Positions 1,720 through 18,659 of a stretch of 25,217 nucleotides of DNA are shown piece by piece. Within the stretch, counting starts at the first letter, position 1. Each line of letters begins with the position of its first letter. A program made the translations under genes and the position numbers. The notes beneath the pieces were generated by a model. That model did no database searches. It had not been told where the DNA came from and saw nothing but the letters and a program-made list of their open reading frames with translations. Source of the DNA: a virus; the IMG/VR virus record IMGVR_UViG_3300047510_001575, positions 1 through 25,217 of that record; one strand, given 5' to 3'.

Positions 1720-4416
1720 TTATTCACCGTATAAACTTTGAGCAGCAAATACTTTAGCAGCGTCTATATCTGAAGTAGAAAACCGTTTACCATTCTGAGT
1801 CAAATATTCTGTCTTTCCGCTTTTGTTTACACTACGAACAAATAATTGAGGTGGTCTTCCTTGTACATATTCTTTAGTTATTTGCAATTTTACTCCTGGA
1901 GCAATATCATTTAAATCTACAGTTTGTAAAATTACAGGATCGTCTCCTTTATCTACATCAGTAATATTTACAAGTCTATCATTAAGACTACTATTAGTCA
2001 TCATATCAAACTGCATAGCTTTTACTGTCTCATAAGTTTGTTTAGCGTAGTTATCAGTATTTCTTCTGTCTTTGTTTAGATATAGTATGTGATCAATAAT
2101 TTTTTCCTGCGTCGGTCTTGCTGCCTTTTTAAAATCTACTAATACTGAAGTAACACTTTTTTTATTGTCATCATTAGTATATTCATAAGGAATTTCTAAT
2201 AACATTTTATTGCCTTTCTTAACTATCTTAACAGATTGTTTATCAGTAAGTAATAATTTTGTTCCTTGTTCTAATCTTCCTTCATCATCAAAACCTTTTA
2301 CTCCTTTCCAGCTATTTGTTGTAGCAGGTTGAAAAGAAGAAAAATCTTCAGCAGTTAAAAATTGAGCATTTAAAAATTTATCTACTTTAGTATCTCCAAC
2401 ATAACGAGTACTCATAAATTCTCCTTGAAGATTACTATTAACTAACCTTTGTTTTTCTTGTTTAATCTCTTGATCAATATTTCGACTTCTGATACCTCCG
2501 CCTATTATATCGCCGCTAAAAATTTTATCGCCACTTTCAACTAATTGTTTTAAAGTTTTGCCTTTAAGTTTAGCTATATCTCCTACTTTCATTCTGTAGT
2601 AAGTAAAACTTTTTCCTACTTCTGGATTATCTTGTTGTAAAATATCAACATCAATTCCTTTTTTCTCTAGTGCTGCAGTTATTTTACGAGGATCGTTAGT
2701 ATTGATATTTAATAATTTCATCATTTTATCTGTACTAACTTGTAAATCTTCTTGTCCTAATTTTCCTAAATAATTATTAAATTCTTTTAATTCAGTTACC
2801 TTTTTATTAATTACATCTTCTTGAGATTTAGCATCTGACCATTTATTAAAATTATCTCTAGAAGCATCTAACTGCTCCTGCATATAATTTAAAGTATTTC
2901 CATTGTTACCTTTCAAAGCATTAAATGCTCTAGTAGCAACATCTAAACTGTTTCCTTCTTTAATTCCAGCATTCCATAATGCACGATGGAAATCTTTAGC
3001 AGTTCCTCCTTTTTGTATTGTAGTAGCAGCAATTTGGAAAATCTTTTCTTGACGTTCTCTTTGAAGGCCATGATTTTTTTCCATATTATTTCTAAAATCA
3101 GTTCCTTTGCGCCCTTGAGTTAATGTTCTTATAGATCCTCCTCCTATATCATTTACATTTTTAAGATGAGGAGTAATTCCTGAAATAGCATTATATCTTT
3201 GTTTAGCAAGATTATCTAAATTTAATGGATCGTAAGTAGTTTCTGCAAATCCTCCAGTAAAATCTAATGGATCTTCGGAACCTGCACCGCCGCCACGTCC
3301 ATTTCCTTGAGTTGGAATATCTCTAAAAGTATAATCAGTATCGATTTTTTTGTACGCAAATACTTTACCTAAAGCAGTCATGTCGTACATTTTATTAAGA
3401 GCCTCTTGATCATATAATCCTTTGATTAAAGGTTCTTCGTATTCTCCTGTTTGTCTTGCTTTTGAAATCTCGTCTTTATAAGCCAACAATTGTTTGTATT
3501 CATCAGATTCTAATAATTCTTTTTGGCCTTTCTTTTTAGATTCTTTTTCAATATATGCTATCTGATCATTAATAGAAGATAATGCATTTTTAGTAAGCTC
3601 ATCAGTTTTTTTAAGATAACCTTCAGGGTTAGTAGCTTTTAATTCATCATAATCAAAATCAGCTTTTTCTAATGCCCAATCTCTAAATCTAGGAAGTGTT
3701 TTTAAATAACCAGAGACAGCTTTAGCTACTTTTTCTGGAGTTCTTGCTTCAGTAATAGTTTGCATGAATTTTTTATCCATTAACGTAGGATCTACTCCAA
3801 GTTCTACTAATGCTCCTGCAATCTTATCTCCTTCTACAGCGCTAGCTACTTTCCAAGACATGTCTTCTAATTCTTTTTCCAGATCTGCTAAACGAGCTTT
3901 AGTGCCGTATAGATTGTACTGTCCTTCTTTTAAATTAGGATCATGTTGCCAATAAGTACCTTGGCCCGATTTATACTCTCTGTCTTTGCGAGCAATATCT
4001 TGATAATATTGATCTCGTGTAATAGCATCTTTTTTGCCGCTATCGATACGTTCTTTTTGTTCTTTTAAATAAGCTTGACGTGCTGCGTAATTATATTCTA
4101 AAGCCTTTTTTTCAGGATCATTTTGCCATAGTCGGTTAAGTTCTTTTAGTTTAGTAGCAGCTTGAGTGTAGTTACCAGTTTCTACTAAACTTTTAGCTAA
4201 CTCATCTCTTTTTTGACGGTAAATTTCTTTTAGTTCCTGAGCTTTAATTGGATCAGTTCCTAAAGAAGTATGTGCTAAATCTACATCAGACTCATTAATT
4301 AAAGCCTGAGTAACATCAAACTTCTCTTGCATTTGTGCTAAAGGAACAGCAAAAGCCGCTAAGTTAAGCGGCTTATACTCAAACTGTATAGGAGTAGTGT
4401 ACGGAGTAATTGGCAT
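1720..4416 (-). CDS. Large internal virion (cargo-type) protein, 898 aa
   Basis: Complete 898-residue frame. The N-terminus (MPITPYTTPIQFEYKPLNLA) followed by AQMQEKFDVTQALINESD and then GTDPIKAQELKE is a pattern I associate with internal structural proteins of crAss-like phages. Residues about 55-150 are strongly helical with tetratricopeptide-like spacing and many Lys, Glu and Tyr. A Gly-rich linker (GNGRGGGAGSEDP) near 375-387 separates a helical N-half from a mixed C-half. The C-terminal 200 residues are more beta-like, with short Val/Ile/Leu strands. No signal peptide, membrane helix or catalytic signature is visible. The upstream stop is 11 bases before its ATG, so it is probably co-translated with the 1195-aa gene. 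Inference: a head-resident or ejected protein. The exact role is unknown. Confidence 0.8.
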   Translation of the reverse strand: MPITPYTTPIQFEYKPLNLAAFAVPLAQMQEKFDVTQALINESDVDLAHTSLGTDPIKAQELKEIYRQKRDELAKSLVETGNYTQAATKLKELNRLWQNDPEKKALEYNYAARQAYLKEQKERIDSGKKDAITRDQYYQDIARKDREYKSGQGTYWQHDPNLKEGQYNLYGTKARLADLEKELEDMSWKVASAVEGDKIAGALVELGVDPTLMDKKFMQTITEARTPEKVAKAVSGYLKTLPRFRDWALEKADFDYDELKATNPEGYLKKTDELTKNALSSINDQIAYIEKESKKKGQKELLESDEYKQLLAYKDEISKARQTGEYEEPLIKGLYDQEALNKMYDMTALGKVFAYKKIDTDYTFRDIPTQGNGRGGGAGSEDPLDFTGGFAETTYDPLNLDNLAKQRYNAISGITPHLKNVNDIGGGSIRTLTQGRKGTDFRNNMEKNHGLQRERQEKIFQIAATTIQKGGTAKDFHRALWNAGIKEGNSLDVATRAFNALKGNNGNTLNYMQEQLDASRDNFNKWSDAKSQEDVINKKVTELKEFNNYLGKLGQEDLQVSTDKMMKLLNINTNDPRKITAALEKKGIDVDILQQDNPEVGKSFTYYRMKVGDIAKLKGKTLKQLVESGDKIFSGDIIGGGIRSRNIDQEIKQEKQRLVNSNLQGEFMSTRYVGDTKVDKFLNAQFLTAEDFSSFQPATTNSWKGVKGFDDEGRLEQGTKLLLTDKQSVKIVKKGNKMLLEIPYEYTNDDNKKSVTSVLVDFKKAARPTQEKIIDHILYLNKDRRNTDNYAKQTYETVKAMQFDMMTNSSLNDRLVNITDVDKGDDPVILQTVDLNDIAPGVKLQITKEYVQGRPPQLFVRSVNKSGKTEYLTQNGKRFSTSDIDAAKVFAAQSLYGE

Positions 4417-4427
4417 AATTAATTATT

Positions 4428-7400
4428 TTATACTTCTGTATTATCTTTATTGTTTTTACGATTTTTTATAGCTTCCATTGCTTGATCAAATATACTTTTA
4501 TATTCAAATGTTTTACCATATTGAGGCGATAACAATCTCATATATTTTTCTTGAGCATCCATTGTTTGGCTGCCTTCTGACATTTGAGCAAGTTGTTCTA
4601 ATCCTTTTGCTAACATTGCTTGTTTAGCTGCTTTAGCGCGATAATTTAAATCTTGTACTTTTAATTTAGTTTCAGCATTTTGGCTTCCTATGTTAGCGTT
4701 GTATATGTCAGCTTGCATTTTTAATTGCTTATCTGCATTTTCTTTACCTGCTAAAATATCTTTAAAGCTAGCAGATCTACGACTAGCTATATTTGCAAGA
4801 TTAGTTAAATAAGCTCCTGAACCAGGTGCAGCATTTCTTACTGCTTCTTGTGCAGCATTATAAGCTAATCTAGTTTGATTTAATTGTGGATCTACATTTA
4901 CTTCATAAGGAGTAATTCTAGATTTATTTAAATAATCATCAATGTTATATTTAGCAGTTTTACCGAACAATCCCATGCCTATATTATAAGCAGCGGGCGC
5001 AGCTAATCCTAAAAACTGAGGTAAAGTTTGTTTCATTTTTAAATTTACCATCCTATCCTCAGTTTGCATATTAGCCCTTTTTAATTCTGATAAATATTCT
5101 TGAGCTTTTTTCTTTTCTTCTTCAGTCTTAGCGTTTTTTACTGCTTCTTCAGCAAGTCTAATTTCTCTTTCAAGATCTGTTTCTTCTTGGCCAATATTAG
5201 AATCGCTTCCTGGCTCATCATTATTTCCATTAAAAGTTCCTGTATTTTCTGCTTCATCAAAATAATCTGCTATTTCATCTGCATCCATTATTCTCAATAA
5301 TTCAGGAGATTCTAAAGCTTCTTCTTTTGTATAAGATACTACTTTAGGAACATTAGTATAAGCATCTAAAATAGTAAAGTTTACTTTTGTTTCACTATCT
5401 GTATTAGGCTCATTATTAGTTCCAGTATTATTGCTTTTTAATAAATTATTTTGAGTGGAAAGAGTATTAGTTACAATAGATGTACCTACATCAGTATCCT
5501 CTGGCAAACCTACTAATGACCCAACATTACGAGTTGTTATAGGAGTTGCTGGTAAATAAGGCATTCTAGAAAGTGGAGTAGTATCTAAAGGATTAGTTCT
5601 ATTTTGTATTTCTTGCATTATATTTCTATTACCTCCTATTCCTTGTAAAGAAGAAGCTAATTGGTTCTGCATAAAATTTGCATTTTCTCCTTCTACTCTA
5701 TACGCAGGTGGAACTTCATATTCTCCCGTGTTAGGATCTGTCCATTCTGCTACTACTTTAGGATCAAATCCCATAGCAATAGCTGCTTCTGGACTAGTTA
5801 AATAAGATGTTAAAGGTGCAACATCTTTTATTAACATTCCTGTTCTAGGATCTATACCATAAGGTTCGTCTAAGTTTCCCATAGATCCTCCTTCATCGTA
5901 CAACATTCCTCCCATTCTTTCTACATTATCTAAAGGCATGTACATTTGTTGACGGGGAGCCTGCAAAGACCCCCCGTAATTAAAAAGTACGTCCATCCTT
6001 TGCCCCATAGGCCCTGCGTTGTTTTTATATCTTGGATAAATAGTAGGGTATAAATGACCTCCAGTCTTTTGCATCATACTTCCAGCCATTCCTGTTACTT
6101 GTTGTAAGAAAGGATTTTGTCCTGCTTTCATCATTGTTTGGGCAAATTTAGGAATATCAGAAGCTCCTTGAGCAAAATCTGTTGCTCCTTCTACTCCTTG
6201 AATACTTCCTAAAGCTCCTGTTGCACCAGTTGCTGTCCCAGCGCCTCCTCCCATTCCTCCTGCAATAGTTCCTGCAAGTGAACCTACTTTTGCTAAAGAA
6301 TTGACTACATTATCAAATTTATCATTAGTTCCGTGAATGTTACTTAATCCTGCTCCTAATCCTTTTGATCCTTGAGAAATTGCTGCTCCCGTAGCAGCTC
6401 CTCCTGATACAATACCTCCAGTAATAGCACCTGCAGTATTAGCAAAACCTCGAATCATTTTATCTCTTTCAATATCATCTGCATCTCTTTGTCCTCCTAT
6501 ACTAGCAAGCGCTTCATATCCTTTATCTGTTATAGGATCCATAAAAGGCATAAGAGTATCTACTAGTCCTTCTCCTACACCATAAGCTCCTGCACCAATA
6601 CTTCTAAGAACTTGTCCACCGCTTGCATACATACGACCGCCTGAACGATATCCTGCCATAGTATTAGGATTTTGCATAAAAGAAAATTGTGGAGTATCAT
6701 AAACACCTAAATCTTTTCTCAATTGTCTATTAGTACTTGCTCCAGGATATATTCCAGTTGCAGGTTGTTCAGGATTCATATAAAAATTACTTCTTACTTG
6801 TCCTCCCATTCCTGTTTCTGGATTTCTCCATTGTGACACAGATGCCTCATTAACAGGATTTTTCATATAAGCAGTAGCTTCTTCTTGAGATCCAAACACA
6901 GGTTCGTCTCTTAAAATTGTTGGAGACATATAAGCTCTGTTAGTATAATCAGGAGCATACATATTATATTGAGTACTCCAATTAGGTTGATAAGTTGGAT
7001 TAGGATTTGTATTTATAGCTCCTCCATTAGGATACATTCTTCCTCCATTCATATACATCTTACCTCCACATGCAAACATAGAACCACCATAAGACATTGG
7101 AATTTGTCCCATTTGCTCTTGTGGCATTCCTCCTTGTTGCATGGCCATTTGTTCTGCCATTGCTGGATCCATTTGTCCTTGTTGCTGAACCATCATTATT
7201 TGCTGTTCTTCTGGAGACATTTGAGGAGGACCTTGAGGCTGCCCTTGTTGGTTCATAGCACCTTGTAATGCTTCCATAACTTCAGGATGTTTACGTTGCA
7301 TCATTTCCATATCTTTTTGGAGATCTACTGCTTTAAAAGCTTCTTGAGCCTGCATTAAATTTTCTAAATCTCTTTGTTTAGCATTTTGTTCGATTGTATC

Positions 7401-8015
7401 GTTATCTCTACGAGAATTAGGTCTATCTAATTTTTTAGATATCTCAGCAAAAGTTTTACCCACATCTTTTTTAGGTAAATTAAATGCAGAAGCTATTCCT
7501 TCATCTAATTTTAAAGTATCAGAAAAAATGTAATTGGAAGCATTTAATTTAGTCTCTCCCTCTTCTACAAGATTTAATCTTCCATCTGGAGCACTGCCTT
7601 GAGGAATACCCCCTAAACGATTTTCTTCGTGACTTCCTCCTTCATTGAACTCAGTCAATTGAGGCATAGTTCCACCATTAGCAAAAGCTCTTGCTTTTAT
7701 TTTAGCTTGCACATCTTTAGGCAAAGCATTAAATCCTGGGTTATTAAACCCTCCATATTTAAAATTCATAGTATTTGGTATATCTAAATTACCTCCCATT
7801 GCATGTTTCCATCCTGCAGCATTACGTGCAAAATTAGCACGTTTAACTTGAGTGCTAGGATAATTATCTTTATTAGCTAAAACATGGGAAGCAAATTCTT
7901 GCACTCCCATTCCCGCCGCATTTGCGCTAGCAGCAAACTTGCCTTTATTTTCTGGCTTAATATAAATACCGCTTCCGCTTTTTAATTGACGAGATGCATT
8001 TGGATATTTATTCAT
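4428..8015 (-). CDS. Large low-complexity internal virion protein with GG-x-M motif array, 1195 aa
   Basis: Complete 1195-aa frame. N-terminus: a conserved block at about 11-70 (GSGIYIKPENKGKF, then VKRANFARNAAGWKH), and a second block at about 126-165 (GGSHEENRLGGIPQG then LNLVEEGE), both recurrent in phage internal proteins from memory. Residues 240-305 are Gln/Met/Pro-rich. Residues 309-333 pack four GG-x-M-type units, with further copies near 458-467, 652-656, 680-684 and 701-712. Residues 528-606 are Gly/Ala-rich with glycine-zipper spacing and could insert in a membrane. Residues 870-950 are acidic and disordered. Residues 945-990 form a charged coiled coil, and the C-terminal 150 residues are helical, Ala/Gln/Lys-rich. 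No enzyme motif is seen. It follows the 677-aa gene by 7 bases. Inference: a packaged cargo protein that may contribute to DNA ejection. Family membership is more certain than function. Confidence 0.82.
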   Translation of the reverse strand: MNKYPNASRQLKSGSGIYIKPENKGKFAASANAAGMGVQEFASHVLANKDNYPSTQVKRANFARNAAGWKHAMGGNLDIPNTMNFKYGGFNNPGFNALPKDVQAKIKARAFANGGTMPQLTEFNEGGSHEENRLGGIPQGSAPDGRLNLVEEGETKLNASNYIFSDTLKLDEGIASAFNLPKKDVGKTFAEISKKLDRPNSRRDNDTIEQNAKQRDLENLMQAQEAFKAVDLQKDMEMMQRKHPEVMEALQGAMNQQGQPQGPPQMSPEEQQIMMVQQQGQMDPAMAEQMAMQQGGMPQEQMGQIPMSYGGSMFACGGKMYMNGGRMYPNGGAINTNPNPTYQPNWSTQYNMYAPDYTNRAYMSPTILRDEPVFGSQEEATAYMKNPVNEASVSQWRNPETGMGGQVRSNFYMNPEQPATGIYPGASTNRQLRKDLGVYDTPQFSFMQNPNTMAGYRSGGRMYASGGQVLRSIGAGAYGVGEGLVDTLMPFMDPITDKGYEALASIGGQRDADDIERDKMIRGFANTAGAITGGIVSGGAATGAAISQGSKGLGAGLSNIHGTNDKFDNVVNSLAKVGSLAGTIAGGMGGGAGTATGATGALGSIQGVEGATDFAQGASDIPKFAQTMMKAGQNPFLQQVTGMAGSMMQKTGGHLYPTIYPRYKNNAGPMGQRMDVLFNYGGSLQAPRQQMYMPLDNVERMGGMLYDEGGSMGNLDEPYGIDPRTGMLIKDVAPLTSYLTSPEAAIAMGFDPKVVAEWTDPNTGEYEVPPAYRVEGENANFMQNQLASSLQGIGGNRNIMQEIQNRTNPLDTTPLSRMPYLPATPITTRNVGSLVGLPEDTDVGTSIVTNTLSTQNNLLKSNNTGTNNEPNTDSETKVNFTILDAYTNVPKVVSYTKEEALESPELLRIMDADEIADYFDEAENTGTFNGNNDEPGSDSNIGQEETDLEREIRLAEEAVKNAKTEEEKKKAQEYLSELKRANMQTEDRMVNLKMKQTLPQFLGLAAPAAYNIGMGLFGKTAKYNIDDYLNKSRITPYEVNVDPQLNQTRLAYNAAQEAVRNAAPGSGAYLTNLANIASRRSASFKDILAGKENADKQLKMQADIYNANIGSQNAETKLKVQDLNYRAKAAKQAMLAKGLEQLAQMSEGSQTMDAQEKYMRLLSPQYGKTFEYKSIFDQAMEAIKNRKNNKDNTEV
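7017..7091 (-). repeat. Dense GG-x-M-Y motif array inside the 1195-aa protein
   Basis: Encodes residues 309-333, in which YGGSM, CGGKMY, NGGRMY and NGG follow one another every 7-8 residues. Related single copies occur elsewhere in this protein and in the adjacent 677-aa protein. Confidence 0.75.
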
Positions 8016-8022
8016 AGCATGA

Positions 8023-10056
8023 TTATTTAAACTTTTTAATTAATCTTCCTCCCAGCCTGTAAACATACGAATTTTCTGGGTAAGTTAGGTCTTTATTAGA
8101 GATATTATTATCAGGTACATTACTAGCATAAAAGTGGCTAGACATTCCTCCACCGTTTCCGTAAATAGCTGGATACTGTGCAGGACTACTAGCATAAATG
8201 CTATTGTGTAGATTATTTCCTCCTTGTTTAAAACTATCTTCTGGTAAACTATAAGGTCTAGGGAATTGTCCACCTGTTCTATATTCTCTATTAATTTTTC
8301 TTTCTTGAGCTAACATTTCTTTAGTAGGCTTTTTACCTGAACCAGCATTTGCTCTAATGTTATCCCATAAACCTCTTTTAGAATACGAACCATCTGCACG
8401 TTTAAGCATTCCTCCTGTTTTATATGCAAAAGGATTAATACCTTTTTGCGACATTTGAAGAATCATATCTTCATAGCCTTTTTGAGCTTCGTATTTATCG
8501 TAAGCTCTATTGTATTCTTCTTGAAGAGCTTTATCTGCTTTATTTCGATATCCTTGAAATTCTATTCTTCTTCCTTCTTCTTGAGCACGTTCTATTTCTC
8601 CAGGATAATAAGCATCACCTCCTTGATATCCTTCCATTTCTTCAGGATTATATCCTGAAAATTTTCTAATTAACTTATCTCTAATAGTATAAGAATCTCT
8701 AGGAGCTAAATAAGCTTCATTATATTTTTCCAAAGTAGGTAAATGAATATATCTACTTTTTCCTTTTTTAATTAAATCACCTCCGTGTCCAGGTTTTCTA
8801 AATTTTGGAAGATGGTATTCTACATCTTTGTGTCCCCAATTTATTCTTGTTTTATAATCATCATGCCATTCCATACCTGTAAAAGGAATAGGATAACTAG
8901 GCGGTAAATTTTCTTCTGGAGTTCCTGCTAATTTTTTTGTATTTATAGAAATTGGCTCAGGTTTTCTAAGCTCCATTTTTATAGGCTTTAATCTAACTGG
9001 CTCTGGCTCATTCCAATAAGGTAGATAATAATTAAGTTTTTTATTATATGCTAAAATCTCATCTGGATAATATCCTATCTGTCCTGTATCAGGATCCCTA
9101 AAACTAATAGGAGGATTAAAATCAGGATATTTAATAGAAACAAATTCAGTAGAAGTAGATCCGTCTTCGGAAGTTATAGTTTGTTCACTTCCTGGACCAC
9201 TAAGCCAATTATAATTCCCTTCAGTATTTCTAGTATTACTAATATATTCAGGAGTAGTCCTACTTTCTAATACCCAACTGTCAATTTCTGCATCTGTTAA
9301 TGCTGGATAAGTTTGTCTTAATCTATCTCTGTTTATTTTATCTTCTAAAAAAGCTGTATTTGGGATAGTCCAATTTCCGCTATTCCTTGCTATACCATAT
9401 TGATAAGGACTATCTGTTTCTTTTGTGTAAATCTCGTAGCCTGCAGGAGGATATTTTGCAGTTAATTCATTTATTCTTGTTTGATAGCCGCTTAATCTAG
9501 GATTATTAATTTTTTGAAAATCTGCAAATTCTTTAGGAGTCATCCTTTGTTTAAAAGCTGCAGAACCATAAGGACCTTTAGTATCGTCTAAATATTCAGG
9601 ACTTTCTGGATCATTTATTACATCTTTATTATTTTCTAAAAATTTTTGATAGTTAAATAATCTATTGGGGTCATTTCTTAAAGCATAAGTAGCTAAATCT
9701 CTTTGCTCATAATTTGGTACTTGACTATGTTCGTATAATTGTTTTCTAATAAGATAATCTTGATAAATAGGATCATCTATACTTTCTACTATTATGGGTT
9801 TTTTAATAGGAACACATTGACCTAAAGCCTCATCATAATATTGTCCTGGACCACAATCAGGCGGAATCATTTGTCCTCCTTCAGCATAATAATTTCCTGG
9901 AGAAGAAGCATATAAACTTGGTAAAAGTTTGCCGTGGTTTGTCTTATCTACTAATGGCCCACCTGTTAAAAAAGGCAGAGCTGTTGTATCTCTAAAAATC
10001 GGCGTCCCTTCAGCTTTATAATAAGTTGCAATATTTTTAACCTTTTTCTTTTTCAT
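8023..10056 (-). CDS. Internal virion (cargo-type) protein with YASSP/GG-x-M motifs, 677 aa
   Basis: Complete 677-aa frame whose ATG shares one base with the stop of the 1489-aa gene (TAATG), so translation is probably coupled. Very basic N-terminus (MKKKKVKN). A YASSPGNYYAEGGQM unit lies at 49-63 and a related NSIYASSPAQYPAIYGNGGGM unit near 618-638, with FYASN at 642-646. A small Cys-bounded segment, CGPGQYYDEALGQC, is at 68-81. The middle is Pro/Tyr-rich with little predicted globular order. Residues 546-591 hold KTGGMLKRADGSYSKRGLWD and GSGKKPTKEMLAQERKIN, a motif I remember from many unrelated phage proteins of unknown role. The C-terminus is basic (RLGGRLIKKFK). The position directly after the muzzle-type gene corresponds to that of the first cargo gene in crAss-like phages. 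Inference: packaged protein. No catalytic function is visible. Confidence 0.8.
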   Translation of the reverse strand: MKKKKVKNIATYYKAEGTPIFRDTTALPFLTGGPLVDKTNHGKLLPSLYASSPGNYYAEGGQMIPPDCGPGQYYDEALGQCVPIKKPIIVESIDDPIYQDYLIRKQLYEHSQVPNYEQRDLATYALRNDPNRLFNYQKFLENNKDVINDPESPEYLDDTKGPYGSAAFKQRMTPKEFADFQKINNPRLSGYQTRINELTAKYPPAGYEIYTKETDSPYQYGIARNSGNWTIPNTAFLEDKINRDRLRQTYPALTDAEIDSWVLESRTTPEYISNTRNTEGNYNWLSGPGSEQTITSEDGSTSTEFVSIKYPDFNPPISFRDPDTGQIGYYPDEILAYNKKLNYYLPYWNEPEPVRLKPIKMELRKPEPISINTKKLAGTPEENLPPSYPIPFTGMEWHDDYKTRINWGHKDVEYHLPKFRKPGHGGDLIKKGKSRYIHLPTLEKYNEAYLAPRDSYTIRDKLIRKFSGYNPEEMEGYQGGDAYYPGEIERAQEEGRRIEFQGYRNKADKALQEEYNRAYDKYEAQKGYEDMILQMSQKGINPFAYKTGGMLKRADGSYSKRGLWDNIRANAGSGKKPTKEMLAQERKINREYRTGGQFPRPYSLPEDSFKQGGNNLHNSIYASSPAQYPAIYGNGGGMSSHFYASNVPDNNISNKDLTYPENSYVYRLGGRLIKKFK

Positions 10057-13000
10057 TAGAATATTTGGTAATCAAAATAAGACATCAAACGATTCATAAT
10101 TAATTCTTTATTATTTGAATTATCAAAATATAAAGTTAATATAAAATGTGTACTTCTCAAACGTCCACGGTCAGTATTATTTCTAGGAATTTTTACTCTC
10201 CATTTATCAAATTTACGCTTTATTCTATCAGGTGAAAAAGGAACTTTACCTGTTGTTTGGTACTCTGTACTAATTTCAAAAGCTGTTATAGTTTGAGTTC
10301 TATCTATTACTTTGTTATCATCTCTTATAATAGAATTGAACTCTAAAGTTCTCAATACTTTGTTAATATCTGCTTGAGCATTTAACACCATAGTTAAAGA
10401 ACATTCTACTTCATTACCGTAAAATACTCCCCAATCTCCTATATTATGGATATAAACATCTTCTGGATTTTCTAAATTTGTACTAAGTAAAGTATCAGAA
10501 TTTGAAATCCAGATTTTAGGAGTAGCAGAATAAAAACAAGAAAATTGTTGCATCAATTCATCATAAACTAATGAATGATATACAGGCAATACAGGTCTAG
10601 AAAGTATTTCAGCATTTTGATTTAATAATATTAAATTTTCTACATTATCAGAGCCAGTAGTAAAGTTAGAGGTGACTTGGTAATAAAAACTAGGTAGAAC
10701 AAATACAATATCATTGACAAAATAATCTGTATTTGGATTAAGTCTTTTAATAATTGGATCTGCTAAAAATGTAAAAATTATCTCATCATTAATAAAATCT
10801 TGTCCTATATGAACGCCTTTTTTTAATATTGGATTATCTCCTCCATTTTCTTTTCTAAGAAAAATAGTATCAGGTAAATTATTTAACCAAGAATGCATTC
10901 CTTTTACTTCAGAAATTGGATTATTTTTAGACTCACTTCCTGAAGTCTGTATTATAAATATTTTTCTTGCTAATGCATCGAAGAAATAAATTCCTGACTC
11001 AGATGTTTTTACTGCCCATTGATGAATAGAACCATGAACTTTAGAAAAATATTGGTGCTTTCCGAACCCTTGTCCTGTTCCTAATTGTGTAGGAACTCCA
11101 TCTGAAGTAGTAGTAATAGCAGCTCGATTAATAGCATATACTCCTACTGCTCTATCTTGAATAAAATGTACAATATCTTTATAGTTAACTATTTTATTTA
11201 TAGGGCCATAATCATCTATGTCATAAAAATTATTTACTCCAAACTTAGTCCAAGAATCAATTTTTTCATCATTTATTTTGACATTAGATAAATAGGCTCT
11301 AACATCATTTACATTACAATTTTCTAATTCATTTGGATTAGGATCTACGAAAAAATTTATTTGATCATTTTCTAAAGAATATACTAAATCATAGTTGTAC
11401 ATATTTAGAATTTTTGCAGTAGGTGCTAAAGAATTATTAGTCTCTTGTCTTAATACTTCTTGTTCTTCCGTTGTACTTCCTGAAGTATAACTATATTTTA
11501 CTCCTGTTCTTAATGTAGCTCCGTTAGCTAAATCTAAATTTAATGTAGATTCTACTACAAATGTTTCAGTCCTAGGTCCAGAATGTGCATAATATTTAGG
11601 GTTATTACTTATATTAACATCAAAAAATTCTTCTTTAAATTCTATATGAGAAATATCTATTGTGGCCATATTTAAAAAAGTATCGCCGCCAAATACTATC
11701 ACAGTATCAGTATTTCCAATAATATTGTTTTTCTTTATAAAAGGAGAAGCTATAATAAAAGTATTAGATTGTAAAGTATTTATATTATTACCTCCGTATA
11801 TTTCTTTTTTTGGAATCACTAATTCTATAATAGGAAAGAAATTATTTCCTACAATAGGACTTGTAATTTTTGGATAAGGATTATTATTTTTTACTACATT
11901 ATTGTTACTAATAAAAAATTCTGCTATAGATGATGTAATAGAAGTTCCTGTAAAAATATCGTTAGATATTTTATCTAATTGTACTACTAAGTTAGATCCT
12001 GATTTACTTATTTCAGGAAAAAAAGTAGGACTGCCTCCTCCTCCTTGAGGATCATTAAGAGTACTATTATTTCCTATTCCTTGCCATCCATCTATTACCC
12101 AATAATTTCTAAGATAATAATCACCGTTACCTAAACTTGTACCAGCATTAGAAGACCATAATTCTGTTACAGTATTATTATAATCACAATCATGTGGCAT
12201 AGAAAAATACTGAGATTCTTTTAATTTCTTAATATTTTCAATACTGTTATAAGTAACAGGAACTACAGTTCTTCTTTTAAATCTTCTATCTTGACTCGAT
12301 ACTGCAAGATTTACATTTGTAAGATCTTTTTCTCTAAGAATTTCTCCTCCTGTATTTGCATATCCTCCTGTCATTAAGAAACAAGGATTGTTAGCTAAGT
12401 TAGTTCCGTTATTTACTACATTATTTTTATTAAAAGAAACATCAGGAGAATAAAAACCTAAAAAATTAGATTTAATCCAATATCCACTTTGCACTGTACC
12501 TGCTACAAAAGGTATTGCATTTGAATATACATCCCCACCAATAGTTTCAAGAAACTGATGATCCCCCATTGTTCCAAAAGTCTGTGAATTTGCTAATACA
12601 TTTTGGTATGAGACCATTAAATGAAGTACGTCTTCACTGTCTTCAACTCTTAAGTCAAATCCTCCTGGAGCTTCGCTTGGATCTCCTGCTATTTGTCTTT
12701 GTCTCCAAAATGTTCTTATAATACCTTGAGAAATTCTTCTTCTATCTAATTCTTCTTTTTTTACTCTTACTATTTGATATCCTATAATATTAGTTAATAA
12801 AGTAGGACAAGTACTAAAATCTAAAATAAATTTTATACCCATGGAATATCCAATGGTTTTATTTCCGTCTAAAGTACTTTGTTGGGATAATGGCCAATAG
12901 TTAGTATTGGATAAATTATTAGCGCTATCTTCTTCAGATATGTCTGGAAATTTAACATCTCCTATATATTCTACAAAAGAAGTTTCCCCTTTATTTGTGT

Positions 13001-14525
13001 AAAAAACAATTCCGAATCTATAGGTTTCTCCTCTTTTATAGCCTCTTAGTAAACCCGATATAAAAGGAGAAGCATGATTAGCATAGGTAACATTATTATA
13101 TACTCCGTACCCATCATCTAAATTATGGGCATCGTAAGGAAATCCATAAGGAACTGGCGAGATATTAACAAATCCTTGTTGTGCATCTCCGTCAATAGTA
13201 AAGGGTTCAAGATGAAAAGTATAATTTATATTTGGGCCTTCTCCTCCTAAAGTTATACCGTCAGATTGGAATTTATATTGTTTATTATCATGCCAATCTT
13301 GATTCCAATGAGCATCTGTATTTAATTCTGAATTAAATGCATTATTTAAATTATTTCCTGTTGGATCTAATGGATCGGGGTCAATTGGAAAAGGAGGTTC
13401 TATTACTGGTCCTATTTTTCTATATCTTCTAGTCTTAGCATCAAAAGTTTCTCCAGGGCCTAGTAAATCTTTTATTTTTATAGTAGATCCTTTTATATTT
13501 GCTGCTACTAAAGAATTATCTTTAGGAGTAATAGTTTTAGGAGTTTTAAAAGCAAAGTTCTTAGTAATAAAACTAGCTAATTCTAATTCTATAATGCTGT
13601 TATTAATACCTGTGTAAATAAACTCTACAGTTGGCTGATTATCAATATTTTGTTCGGATACAGAATATACTACTGGAACAGCTGTAGTACTTGCATAATG
13701 CACTACTATAAATTCTATTTTTTCAAAATCTAAATATTGACTAGTATCGATTAAAATAGTAAAAGTTTTTCCTGTATTAACAGTTCCAGGATTTATGTCT
13801 CCATTATAATTTGCAGACTGAGGTAAAGTATCAGAATCTGCTACCATGTGAAATAAATTTCCTGGAGGAGAAATTAAAGTTTCTTTACCATCAGAAGTAA
13901 TTAATCTATAAGCTGGTTGATATATTCCTCCTAATACTGATCCTCCTCCTCCTATACCTTTTAATAAAGGCTGAGTATAAGTTAGATCTGGAAATATATC
14001 TACACTGCCTAAAGGGTAGGAAGTCAAGTCTTCTGCTATATTTAAGCTTCTAAAAAAATTATTATAATCTGTCCAATAAACTCTTTGAATACAATCAGAT
14101 TCATAACGACCTACGGCTTCTATTGGCCAAATCTTTTTAAAATTTAAATTAGCATTATAGTAAACTAATTTAGGATAATTAGGAGAAATTTTTTTATTTC
14201 CTGGATTATATTCTAAATCATAAATCCAACCATTTTGTTCAGAATCATCTGCTACAAATAAAATTATTTTATTTCTAATAGTAGCATATCCGATGATTTC
14301 TGGAACGCCTGAAGCTGTCCATAACCCAAATGGAGCATTTTCTTCTCCTTGAGTAGGAATTGTAAATGCAAACTCATTACCTCGGATATTAGTAAATGCT
14401 CCCATAGATTCTCCTGTTACAGGAGTTATTCTAATATCTAAAGCATCGATATAAAGAGTACTAGCTATGGTATCATAGGCAGTATCTTTATTCATTCCTT
14501 GATAAGTATTTATATTTTTTTCCAT
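10056..14525 (-). CDS. Tail muzzle / stabilisation-type structural protein, 1489 aa
   Basis: Largest frame in the window. The N-terminus MEKNINTYQGMNKDTAYDTI followed by LYIDALDIRI and GESMGAFTNIRGNEF is characteristic, from memory, of the large tail protein that follows the ring genes in crAss-like phages (muzzle, gp44 in phage PhicrAss001). Residues 50-350 are rich in short beta strands. A Pro/Asp-rich linker (EPPFPIDPDPLDPTG) lies at 376-390, followed by Asn-rich beta structure through the middle. A conserved-looking C-terminal block is present (DKWRVKIPRN, then THFILTLYFDN, ending MNRLMSYFDYQIF). No signal peptide or membrane helix. Its ATG shares one base with the stop of the 274-aa ring-type gene, and its own stop shares one base with the next ATG. 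Inference: it forms the distal, host-facing end of the short tail. Identification is good; the exact fold was not tested. Confidence 0.82.
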   Translation of the reverse strand: MEKNINTYQGMNKDTAYDTIASTLYIDALDIRITPVTGESMGAFTNIRGNEFAFTIPTQGEENAPFGLWTASGVPEIIGYATIRNKIILFVADDSEQNGWIYDLEYNPGNKKISPNYPKLVYYNANLNFKKIWPIEAVGRYESDCIQRVYWTDYNNFFRSLNIAEDLTSYPLGSVDIFPDLTYTQPLLKGIGGGGSVLGGIYQPAYRLITSDGKETLISPPGNLFHMVADSDTLPQSANYNGDINPGTVNTGKTFTILIDTSQYLDFEKIEFIVVHYASTTAVPVVYSVSEQNIDNQPTVEFIYTGINNSIIELELASFITKNFAFKTPKTITPKDNSLVAANIKGSTIKIKDLLGPGETFDAKTRRYRKIGPVIEPPFPIDPDPLDPTGNNLNNAFNSELNTDAHWNQDWHDNKQYKFQSDGITLGGEGPNINYTFHLEPFTIDGDAQQGFVNISPVPYGFPYDAHNLDDGYGVYNNVTYANHASPFISGLLRGYKRGETYRFGIVFYTNKGETSFVEYIGDVKFPDISEEDSANNLSNTNYWPLSQQSTLDGNKTIGYSMGIKFILDFSTCPTLLTNIIGYQIVRVKKEELDRRRISQGIIRTFWRQRQIAGDPSEAPGGFDLRVEDSEDVLHLMVSYQNVLANSQTFGTMGDHQFLETIGGDVYSNAIPFVAGTVQSGYWIKSNFLGFYSPDVSFNKNNVVNNGTNLANNPCFLMTGGYANTGGEILREKDLTNVNLAVSSQDRRFKRRTVVPVTYNSIENIKKLKESQYFSMPHDCDYNNTVTELWSSNAGTSLGNGDYYLRNYWVIDGWQGIGNNSTLNDPQGGGGSPTFFPEISKSGSNLVVQLDKISNDIFTGTSITSSIAEFFISNNNVVKNNNPYPKITSPIVGNNFFPIIELVIPKKEIYGGNNINTLQSNTFIIASPFIKKNNIIGNTDTVIVFGGDTFLNMATIDISHIEFKEEFFDVNISNNPKYYAHSGPRTETFVVESTLNLDLANGATLRTGVKYSYTSGSTTEEQEVLRQETNNSLAPTAKILNMYNYDLVYSLENDQINFFVDPNPNELENCNVNDVRAYLSNVKINDEKIDSWTKFGVNNFYDIDDYGPINKIVNYKDIVHFIQDRAVGVYAINRAAITTTSDGVPTQLGTGQGFGKHQYFSKVHGSIHQWAVKTSESGIYFFDALARKIFIIQTSGSESKNNPISEVKGMHSWLNNLPDTIFLRKENGGDNPILKKGVHIGQDFINDEIIFTFLADPIIKRLNPNTDYFVNDIVFVLPSFYYQVTSNFTTGSDNVENLILLNQNAEILSRPVLPVYHSLVYDELMQQFSCFYSATPKIWISNSDTLLSTNLENPEDVYIHNIGDWGVFYGNEVECSLTMVLNAQADINKVLRTLEFNSIIRDDNKVIDRTQTITAFEISTEYQTTGKVPFSPDRIKRKFDKWRVKIPRNNTDRGRLRSTHFILTLYFDNSNNKELIMNRLMSYFDYQIF

Positions 14526-15350: not shown

Positions 15351-15626
15351 TTACATATTTTTAAGTACCTGCTCTAAACGAGAAATAATTCCTCCAGTAG
15401 AAGAATCTATATTTGGATTTTCTTGGCTTACAGATTTTTCTGTTTTCCATTGCCAACAACCATCTTTATCTTTATAGCGAGTTTCTTTAGTGATAATATA
15501 ACCGCCTTCTACTTGTTCTACACGAGTTTCTTCTGAAGAACCATCTTCAAATTCTTTTCTTGTAATATTAACAGTTGTTTCTACTTCTTTACCTCCTCCA
15601 GAGGCCATTGTTATTTCGTTATCCAT
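15351..15626 (-). CDS. Small conserved structural-block protein, 91 aa
   Basis: Ninety-one residues: an N-terminal beta segment (VETTVNITRKEFEDGSSEE), a middle hairpin (GGYIITKETRYKDKDGCWQW) and a short amphipathic C-terminal helix (IISRLEQVLKNM). Acidic overall, no membrane segment. The gene overlaps the end of the IHF-like gene by 8 bases and ends one base before the ring-protein ATG, which supports expression from the same message. It is not assigned to a named family. Its position between the IHF-like and ring genes suggests a minor neck or tail component, or an assembly factor. Confidence 0.7.
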   Translation of the reverse strand: MDNEITMASGGGKEVETTVNITRKEFEDGSSEETRVEQVEGGYIITKETRYKDKDGCWQWKTEKSVSQENPNIDSSTGGIISRLEQVLKNM

Positions 15627-17487: not shown

Positions 17488-17946
17488 TTATGAAGCAATT
17501 TCAAAATGCATCCAGTCATAATCTTTTTCACGACCCAAAGAAAGAAATCCATGTTTATAAAAGATATCAATCATTGGTTTATATTCAGGACGAGCAAATC
17601 TTGCAGTACGATGATTTTCTTTAAGCAAATTTCTTGCTGGATCTAAATCAATAGCTACTCCCCAAGAATGCCTAGATAATTCTGTTCCCCCGCGCATTTT
17701 GCGATAATTAAAGCAACCTCCGTACTTATTAATTCCTAGTGCTTGAATTTTTTCTAATCCATAAACTGTTAGAATTTCTTCGAATACTGCTTTAAATTTA
17801 TCTGCCACTAATTTATGGCAACGCATTTTTTTAACTGGTTTTCCGTCATAGTAAAAATCATACGGAAGATCAATAGTAACTAGGTATCCTTTTCCTTCTG
17901 CATTAGGAGTACCGTACTTTTTAGTCAATTCTTTTGTCGTCAACAT
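17488..17946 (-). CDS. Endolysin, M15-family zinc peptidase, 152 aa
   Basis: A clear peptidase M15 (D-Ala-D-Ala carboxypeptidase / L-Ala-D-Glu endopeptidase-like) domain. Motif [13 protein letters not shown] at 91-103 supplies zinc ligands His93 and Asp100. DYDWMHFE at 142-149 supplies His147, with Asp144 the likely catalytic acid/base. Family knowledge: these enzymes cut peptidoglycan stem peptides using one Zn2+. The whole protein is essentially the catalytic domain, with no cell-wall-binding domain and no signal peptide, so it needs a holin to reach the periplasm. Start choice: ATG 17946 overlaps the upstream 82-aa membrane-protein gene by 26 bases and gives a standard M15 length. It sits directly after holin-like genes, completing a lysis cassette. 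Confidence 0.92.
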
Positions 17947-18170: not shown

Positions 18171-18659
18171 TTAATTTTCTTTATCTATTAATTTTTTTAA
18201 TCCAAATCTAGATTTTAAAAGTCTTACTAATGCTTTAGGCAATAATCCTATTTCTCCTAAATTTTCCAATAAAGATACAAAATATACTGAATAAAATCCT
18301 CCAATAACTAATCCTGGTAATAAAGTAAATAGCATATTTCCTTTAGCCATATTCCAAGAAATGTGTAATAAATAAGAAGTGGCTATAAAATACAATGGCA
18401 TACGCCATACTTTAAAACTAACAAATCTTTTATTTATAATACCTTTTGCAATTCCTGTAATCCAATCTGTCATCATTAGTGACCACAAAGTATAAACTGC
18501 TGTTGGATCATCCCAAATGTAATTAGTAATAAAGGAAGTAGAAGCAGCAGTCAAAGCAACACAAGTGTTGACTATCCAACTTTTAGTTCCTACTAAAGAA
18601 TTAAAAAAATCAATTGGATGAGAAAATCCTATAAATCCTGCTTCAGCTTCTTTTTTCAT
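18171..18659 (-). CDS. Holin, phage holin 4 (toxin-secretion/lysis holin) family candidate, 162 aa
   Basis: Four hydrophobic segments at about 28-47, 54-72, 86-104 and 108-130. The loop carries MTDWITGIAKGIINKRFVSF at 63-82, matching the D-x-x-TG...K pattern seen in holin 4 family proteins, followed by a Lys and a hydrophobic helix. The C-terminus is basic (LLKSRFGLKKLIDKEN), as expected for a cytoplasmic tail. Family role: oligomerises in the inner membrane to release the endolysin. The endolysin gene is two genes downstream, separated by a small membrane protein, giving a coherent cassette. A 53-base gap lies upstream, the largest in this neighbourhood. Confidence 0.85.
   Translation of the reverse strand: MKKEAEAGFIGFSHPIDFFNSLVGTKSWIVNTCVALTAASTSFITNYIWDDPTAVYTLWSLMMTDWITGIAKGIINKRFVSFKVWRMPLYFIATSYLLHISWNMAKGNMLFTLLPGLVIGGFYSVYFVSLLENLGEIGLLPKALVRLLKSRFGLKKLIDKEN

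Follow-up and report, generated by a model that had tools for sequence, protein, structure and literature searches.

Glycine pairs at the edges of exchangeable mini-domains in cargo protein 1 of a crassvirus and in its neighbour

Introduction

The published account of cargo protein 1 (C1; PF25725) of the crassvirus PhiCrAss001, gp45, gives a transmembrane helix and segments bound to the portal and to the tail, and a text search of it showed no mention of GG joints or exchangeable mini-domains (PMC10172136). Electron cryo-microscopy (cryo-EM) resolved its residues 214-245 in the tail barrel and its residues 425-552, described as one compact domain, at the portal (PMC10172136); the protein is stretched from capsid to tail, and ejection in a partly unfolded state has been proposed (PMC10172136, PMC10136315). 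Here we analyse two adjacent genes of an IMG/VR virus record of 25,217 bases, the whole of which we call the window: one encodes a C1 homologue of 1195 residues (p1195), the other an extra neighbour of 677 residues (p677). With gp45, p1195 has in common the CARG1 domain, the position after the muzzle gene, GG joints and a copy of a mini-domain that we call module C. Glycine pairs (GG) mark the edges of such modules far above chance. Between relatives, modules come and go, change their order and pass from one gene to its neighbour; they are also found alone, as small genes close to those for head and tail.

Other described systems bear some likeness to this one. The polyvalent proteins of phages and conjugative elements are large and multidomain, their domains also occur alone, and they have been proposed to enter with DNA (PMC5512222); solo occurrence is found here too, for modules A and C, which exist as small genes. 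Polyvalent proteins combine enzymatic, DNA-binding and other disparate domains (PMC5512222), whereas the units described here are mini-domains of 20-65 residues with GG edges, and the zincin-like metallopeptidase that is a common though not universal polyvalent theme is not found in the window, whose open reading frames (ORFs) contain no HExxH sequence. The terms crAss, glycine and linker do not occur in the text of PMC5512222. The mosaic ejection proteins of podoviruses, T7 gp14-gp16, are likewise internal and ejected at infection, with a domain swap between neighbouring ejection proteins, but there a single enzymatic domain is swapped and no glycine linker is described (PMC8954989), as opposed to the many short modules seen here. 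Shuffled phage protein fragments (PMC10684548) are a more general case of domain mosaicism in phage proteins, and the terms ejection, internal virion, crAss and linker do not occur in that text. In a largely open-access literature, preprints not included, we found no description of the GG joints or of the module set; searches on module sequence or DUF6321 returned nothing, and those on a glycine motif or cargo protein of Crassvirales returned known crassvirus papers only. PHROG 20603 matches module C; of two Pfam families, DUF6321 matches a unit that stands alone beside module A, and DUF5754 has a weak match to the module G/H region. None of these concerns the joints.

Results

The two genes lie next to each other on the minus strand of the window.

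4428..8015 (-): p1195, C1 homologue of 1195 residues, a mosaic of mini-domains joined by GG-x-[hydrophobic] (PF25725, gp45 match, position after muzzle)
8023..10056 (-): p677, extra gene of 677 codons that separates C1 from muzzle and encodes module A and GG joints (orthologues in loci L030, L034 and L003)

Besides module A, to which a scan with p677 pointed (below), recurring units were found by cutting GG-rich proteins at GG and comparing the pieces; the modules were made into hidden Markov models (HMMs), A to L. The mini-domains are ~20-65 residues long, some absent from Pfam and some weakly matched, and they form 31 arrangements of two or more modules over ~90 loci, in C1-type proteins. 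A GG lies within 12 residues of the upstream module edge in 139 of 162 cases (86%) and of the downstream edge in 151 of 182 (83%), compared with 16.5% of random non-module 14-residue segments of the same proteins, although this first edge count is inflated because most modules were first recognised by GG cutting. GG density inside the modules is 0.08 per 100 residues versus 1.41 overall. In independent loci, fetched through module C and with the contigs common to the first set removed, a GG is near the edge in 55 of 58 and 53 of 57 cases (93-95%, versus 19.8%). A GG-blind test, based on where local similarities between otherwise unlike proteins end, placed these ends within 7 residues of a GG in 53% of cases versus 17%; the figures were 34% versus 17% (twofold) when the ends were collapsed without a strength filter, and 56% versus 19% for compact, strong matches, also collapsed. 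The enrichment of GG at edges is real, and amounts to two- to threefold under the GG-blind test. That the motifs flank swappable mini-domains goes beyond the original prediction, in which a Gly-Gly-basic-Met/Leu signature shared by the two proteins was taken as a possible packaging tag, portal docking peptide or processing site.

The exchange of modules can be followed across relatives. Many module pairs, such as A/C, A/E, B/C and C/E, are found in both orders. In the close relatives L030 and L034, C1 aligns to p1195 across KHAMGG ... RAFA[ND]GG ... LTEFNEGGSHE, with module B missing between the joints, and module A is at the C1 N-terminus in these two and near the end of the preceding protein in the window and in L003. 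DAC15 has module C in tandem, its two copies separated by GG joints, and cr108 has module C after CARG1 instead of before it. In freshwater or other environmental crass-like loci, modules A and C and a DUF6321 unit each have a small gene of their own, in the interval from the ring/muzzle genes to the position of C1. Non-crass phages have module A as a short gene, located between the genes for terminase or portal and that for the major head protein. Module C HMM matches were obtained in 38 loci of the first set and 67 of the second.

Scanning viral contigs with p677 gave 246 IMG/VR contigs, and among the matches listed it is mainly residues 545-598, that is module A, that are covered; the same kind of scan with the whole C1 protein gave no confirmed relatives, and tblastn of p677 against the phage collection gave no match. 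For module A there was no convincing match among phage records, and only two bacterial assemblies in the genome collection. Loci were fetched with the pattern GKKPTKEM, which in part accounts for the exact conservation of this sequence in module A.

Several loci are worth recording in their own right. The module A gene of L067, L044, L040 and L074, which are without crass hallmarks, has ~50 codons, with terminase-side genes on one side of it and the gene for the major head protein on the other; in L040 and L074 a second small basic gene is beside it. In cr10_1 (NC_055875.1 47339-47566; L087), module C stands alone as a 75-residue gene between a peptidase gene and the head genes; its annotation is that of a transcriptional regulator, which nothing seen here supports. 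A protein of Thermus phages (NC_009804.1 80525-80674 and others) resembles module C (tblastn E 4e-3 with an archaeal-virus copy; weak Foldseek match, E 0.025, to a 59-residue protein of P74-26), so the mini-domain extends past Bacteroidota phages. Four successive genes in L063 (3768-7956) have a near-identical short start, such as MKSKYRKYNEGGPVKPKKRK, and some of them otherwise look different.

In the window, the GG motif occurs in p1195 at positions 114, 310/317/324/331, 459/466, 652, 681 and 702/709, and in p677 at 60, 548, 595, 612, 635 and 669. The copies named in the original prediction are present within one or two positions of the residues given, and RLGGRL, which had been placed at the very end of p677, lies 9 residues before the C-terminus. 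There are further copies in p1195 at 74 (KHAMGGNL), 88 (KYGGF) and 126 (NEGGSHEEN), and in p677 at 32 (LTGGPL) and 425 (HGGDLI). Compared with composition-preserving shuffles (2000 per protein), p1195 has 10 copies of GG-x-[ML] where 1.51 are expected (6 versus 0.70 for GG-x-M) and p677 has 6 where 0.34 are expected, and none of the 17 other window ORFs tested has a copy. The counts are therefore more than a Gly/Met-rich composition gives, and the signature is, as proposed, non-random, recurring and confined to the muzzle-C1 cargo region, in two proteins that are otherwise dissimilar (best BLASTP E = 0.68). Only 5 of the 16 GG-x-[ML] copies have a basic residue in third place, so the description as Gly-Gly-basic-Met/Leu proved too narrow; the family is better described by GG-x-[hydrophobic] (p1195, 14 versus 3.4 expected; p677, 7 versus 1.2), which in the window most often takes the form GG-x-[ML]. 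No fixed conserved residue accompanies the GG; there is a weak hydrophobic preference at +2, and the +2 residue is often the first residue of the following module. The GGs of p1195 at ~533-590 (AITGGIVSGGAATG, AGGMGGG), in a Gly-rich hydrophobic stretch, are probably of a different kind.

GG-x-[hydrophobic] is also enriched in the C1 of the six other crassviruses compared: crAss001 (12 observed versus 3.2 expected), DAC15 (13 versus 2.9), jaberico (6 versus 1.1), cr108 and cr127 (6 versus ~2) and, marginally, cr10 (3 versus 0.85). No such enrichment was detected in crAss001 gp46, gp47, gp49, gp50 and muzzle, or in the C2-position protein of the window, the C2 of DAC15 being a weak exception (4 versus 0.75). 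Because gp46, gp47, gp49 and gp50 have been detected in PhiCrAss001 virions (PMC10172136), the motif belongs to C1-type proteins and not to packaged proteins generally. A terminal GG tag was considered separately, as GG is about twofold denser in the last 15 residues of GG-rich proteins than elsewhere in them, which is not so at the N-terminus; it was rejected as too weak when set against the joint explanation.

The modules and joints in p1195, followed by those in p677, are these:

7806..7967 (-): module C (IYIKPENKGKF...NFARNAAGWK), p1195 17-70, a predicted three-helix unit (HMM, AlphaFold2)
7749..7802 (-): GG joint region between modules C and B (MGGNL...KYGG), p1195 72-89; L030 and L034 align across it, without module B
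7692..7742 (-): module B (NPGFNALPKDVQAKIKA), p1195 92-108; HMM matches in 23 loci
7665..7685 (-): GG joint FANGGTM, p1195 111-117, between module B and the CARG1 domain
7314..7670 (-): CARG1 domain, p1195 116-234, homologous to the portal-bound PhiCrAss001 gp45 domain (Pfam, gp45 alignment, PMC10172136)
7017..7091 (-): four-unit GG array YGGSMFACGGKMYMNGGRMYPNGG, p1195 309-333, with no recognised module adjoining; like the array in L003 C1
6615..6644 (-): SGGRMYASGG, p1195 458-467, start of a Gly-rich hydrophobic domain kept in L030 and L034
6048..6062 (-): GGHLY, p1195 652-656, end of the Gly-rich hydrophobic domain; GGYL here in relatives
5880..5915 (-): MGGMLYDEGGSM, p1195 701-712
4482..5216 (-): C1 C-terminal region, p1195 934-1178, conserved among relatives and GG-free
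9943..10056 (-): N-terminal unit of p677 (TYYKAEGTPIFRDTTALPFLTGG), residues 1-38; the segment recurs in 7 loci, with 59-67% identity in L003, L030 and L034
8404..8421 (-): GG joint KTGGML, p677 546-551, upstream edge of module A
8290..8409 (-): module A (MLKRADGSYSKRGLWDNIRANAGSGKKPTKEMLAQERKIN), p677 550-589, net charge +6
8263..8280 (-): GG joint RTGGQF, p677 593-598, downstream edge of module A
8041..8058 (-): RLGGRL near the C-terminus of p677, residues 667-672; other hosts also have a GG near the C-terminus

AlphaFold2 modelled module C as three helices, with a predicted local distance difference test (pLDDT) score of 86-91 in the core and below 50 in the flanks that hold the GGs; for module A the prediction was of low quality (mean pLDDT 61). 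Foldseek with module C found nothing in the PDB below E 0.8, and among viral models found C1 proteins and a crAss-like protein named PolyVal ADP-ribosyltransferase. In gp45, the cryo-EM segment 214-245 lies between GG209 and GG263, and the segment 425-552 begins at FGG427 and stops before YGG562. The average net charge is +7 to +12 for modules A, C, D, E and G and ~0 for the remainder of their hosts; these strongly basic modules are 5 of the 12, the two commonest among them, and their charge suggests that they may contact packaged DNA.

The window is assigned to a crassvirus by its genes for muzzle (PF25731), ring proteins 1 and 2, and cargo protein 1 (PF25725), all recognised with Pfam. p1195 matches PF25725 over residues 116-234 (E 7.8e-27; 94.4 bits versus a cut-off of 27) and the gp45 chain of PDB entry 7qog (7qog_M; E 9.2e-15), with p1195 119-280 aligned to gp45 440-589. 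It is for gp45 only that presence in the virion is shown (PMC10172136). In gene order the window matches PhiCrAss001, C1 coming downstream of muzzle, save for p677, inserted between the two. Pfam identified no known enzymatic domain in p1195 or p677, in which several modules are present. Flanking the pair are two further genes.

10056..14525 (-): muzzle protein, marker of the crassvirus tail/cargo cluster (Pfam PF25731, E 2e-137)
1720..4416 (-): 898-residue protein, a negative control without GG enrichment; C2 assigned by position only

Elsewhere in the window, a 91-residue gene (15351-15626) between ring protein 1 and the IHF-position gene has 4 GG pairs where 0.8 are expected, and no GG-x-[ML]. 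An ORF of 82 codons separates a peptidase M15 endolysin-like gene (17488-17946) from one of the holin family (18171-18659). In other loci (L004, L024, L003, L002, L031 and L042), some module-bearing cargo-type proteins contain an HExxH metallopeptidase-like sequence.

Discussion

We consider it likely that GG-x-[hydrophobic] is the flexible joint of a cargo or ejection protein built like beads on a string. C1 and the extra neighbour would be assembled from short, independently inherited mini-domains with glycine-pair joints between them. Were the joints flexible and unstructured, they could let a protein held in capsid and tail thread through the portal and the tail channel, and each bead might dock or bind DNA on its own. 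Modules could then be exchanged without disturbing their neighbours, and the joints would be natural sites for the gain and loss of units.

Some observations weigh against this reading, beyond the inflation of the first edge count and the smaller effect in the GG-blind tests (threefold, or twofold for collapsed ends without a strength filter). For nine of the 16 GG-x-[ML] copies in the window, those of the 309-333 array and of 681-712 among them, there is no recognised module edge at a distance of 20 residues or less; such copies may be joints that have decayed, signs of undiscovered modules, or something else. GG425 of p677 is inside a conserved stretch and not at an edge, and GG434 and GG447 of gp45 are inside the compact portal-bound domain. 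Modules F, J, K and L are negatively charged, so basic charge is not universal, and the flexibility of the joints is deduced solely from glycine content and low model confidence.

The same two gp45 glycine pairs bear on the proposal that the GGs are processing sites, with C1 and its neighbour being polyproteins that are cut into modules before or after ejection. Such cutting would explain the free-standing module equivalents and suits the presence of GG on both sides of modules; zincin-like metallopeptidases have been proposed to process polyvalent proteins (PMC5512222), and HExxH is found in 6 of 69 module hosts of at least 300 residues, although its per-residue frequency there is only ~2x that of other ORFs, on small numbers. 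The window ORFs, however, have no HExxH, the GGs have no fixed neighbouring residue beyond the weak +2 preference, and gp45 425-552 was seen as one piece in the virion across GG434 and GG447 (PMC10172136), the two copies at which cleavage can be judged. We therefore regard processing as rather unlikely. The motif might otherwise serve, in its many copies, as a short peptide that docks on the portal or the tail barrel. The portal-bound gp45 piece starts with FGGWLNTQGG and contains NEGGSHEEN, sequences like the latter are present in the C1 of crAss001 and of cr108, DAC15 having a variant, and the window matches this region, p1195 GG114 and GG126 corresponding to gp45 GG434 and GG447 (the first pair matched by eye, just outside the alignment). 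Docking may thus hold for this one region, but most copies lie outside it, vary in number and place and track module edges, and gp45 214-245, the other segment at the channel wall, adjoins GG and contains none; as an account of the motif as a whole, we think it improbable.

Similar DNA at the GG codons might instead promote module exchange, with any role in the protein secondary. Short imperfect direct repeats do overlap some GG sites of the window, such as TCCTCCTTCA at 5886, 7635 and 9874, a comparison made without a chance expectation, but GG codons vary synonymously between copies (GGAGGT, GGTGGA, GGTGGT, GGCGGT, GGGGGG). We give little credence to recombination tracts as the main function, a reading that is in any case compatible with the joint explanation. 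Least probable is a capsid-packaging tag common to all packaged proteins. Known capsid-targeting sequences, for example that of T4, are single and terminal, whereas the GG copies are numerous and mostly internal. The confinement of the motif in the window to two cargo-cluster genes would fit a tag; gp46, gp47, gp49 and gp50, though packaged, are not enriched, and neither is the C2-position protein, which speaks against a general tag as originally suggested.

More tentatively, and with considerable doubt on our part, C1 and its neighbours could be a plug-in delivery chassis, in which a conserved CARG1 portal anchor and C-terminal region accept an interchangeable set of small basic modules through GG joints. 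The modules would be carried into the host along with the DNA, to act inside it or to coat the genome as it comes in, and their set might differ from one close relative to another on account of differences in hosts or defences.

In the human gut, crassviruses rank with the most common viruses. On the storage and ejection of their cargo proteins, the flexible-joint reading suggests a reason why a single long protein can be resolved as two segments apart from each other, the first in the capsid and the second in the tail. The joints also provide a parsing rule, in that C1 cut at GG yields recurring units, and turn long hypothetical proteins into defined mini-domain families, several of them absent from Pfam, that can be expressed singly and tested.

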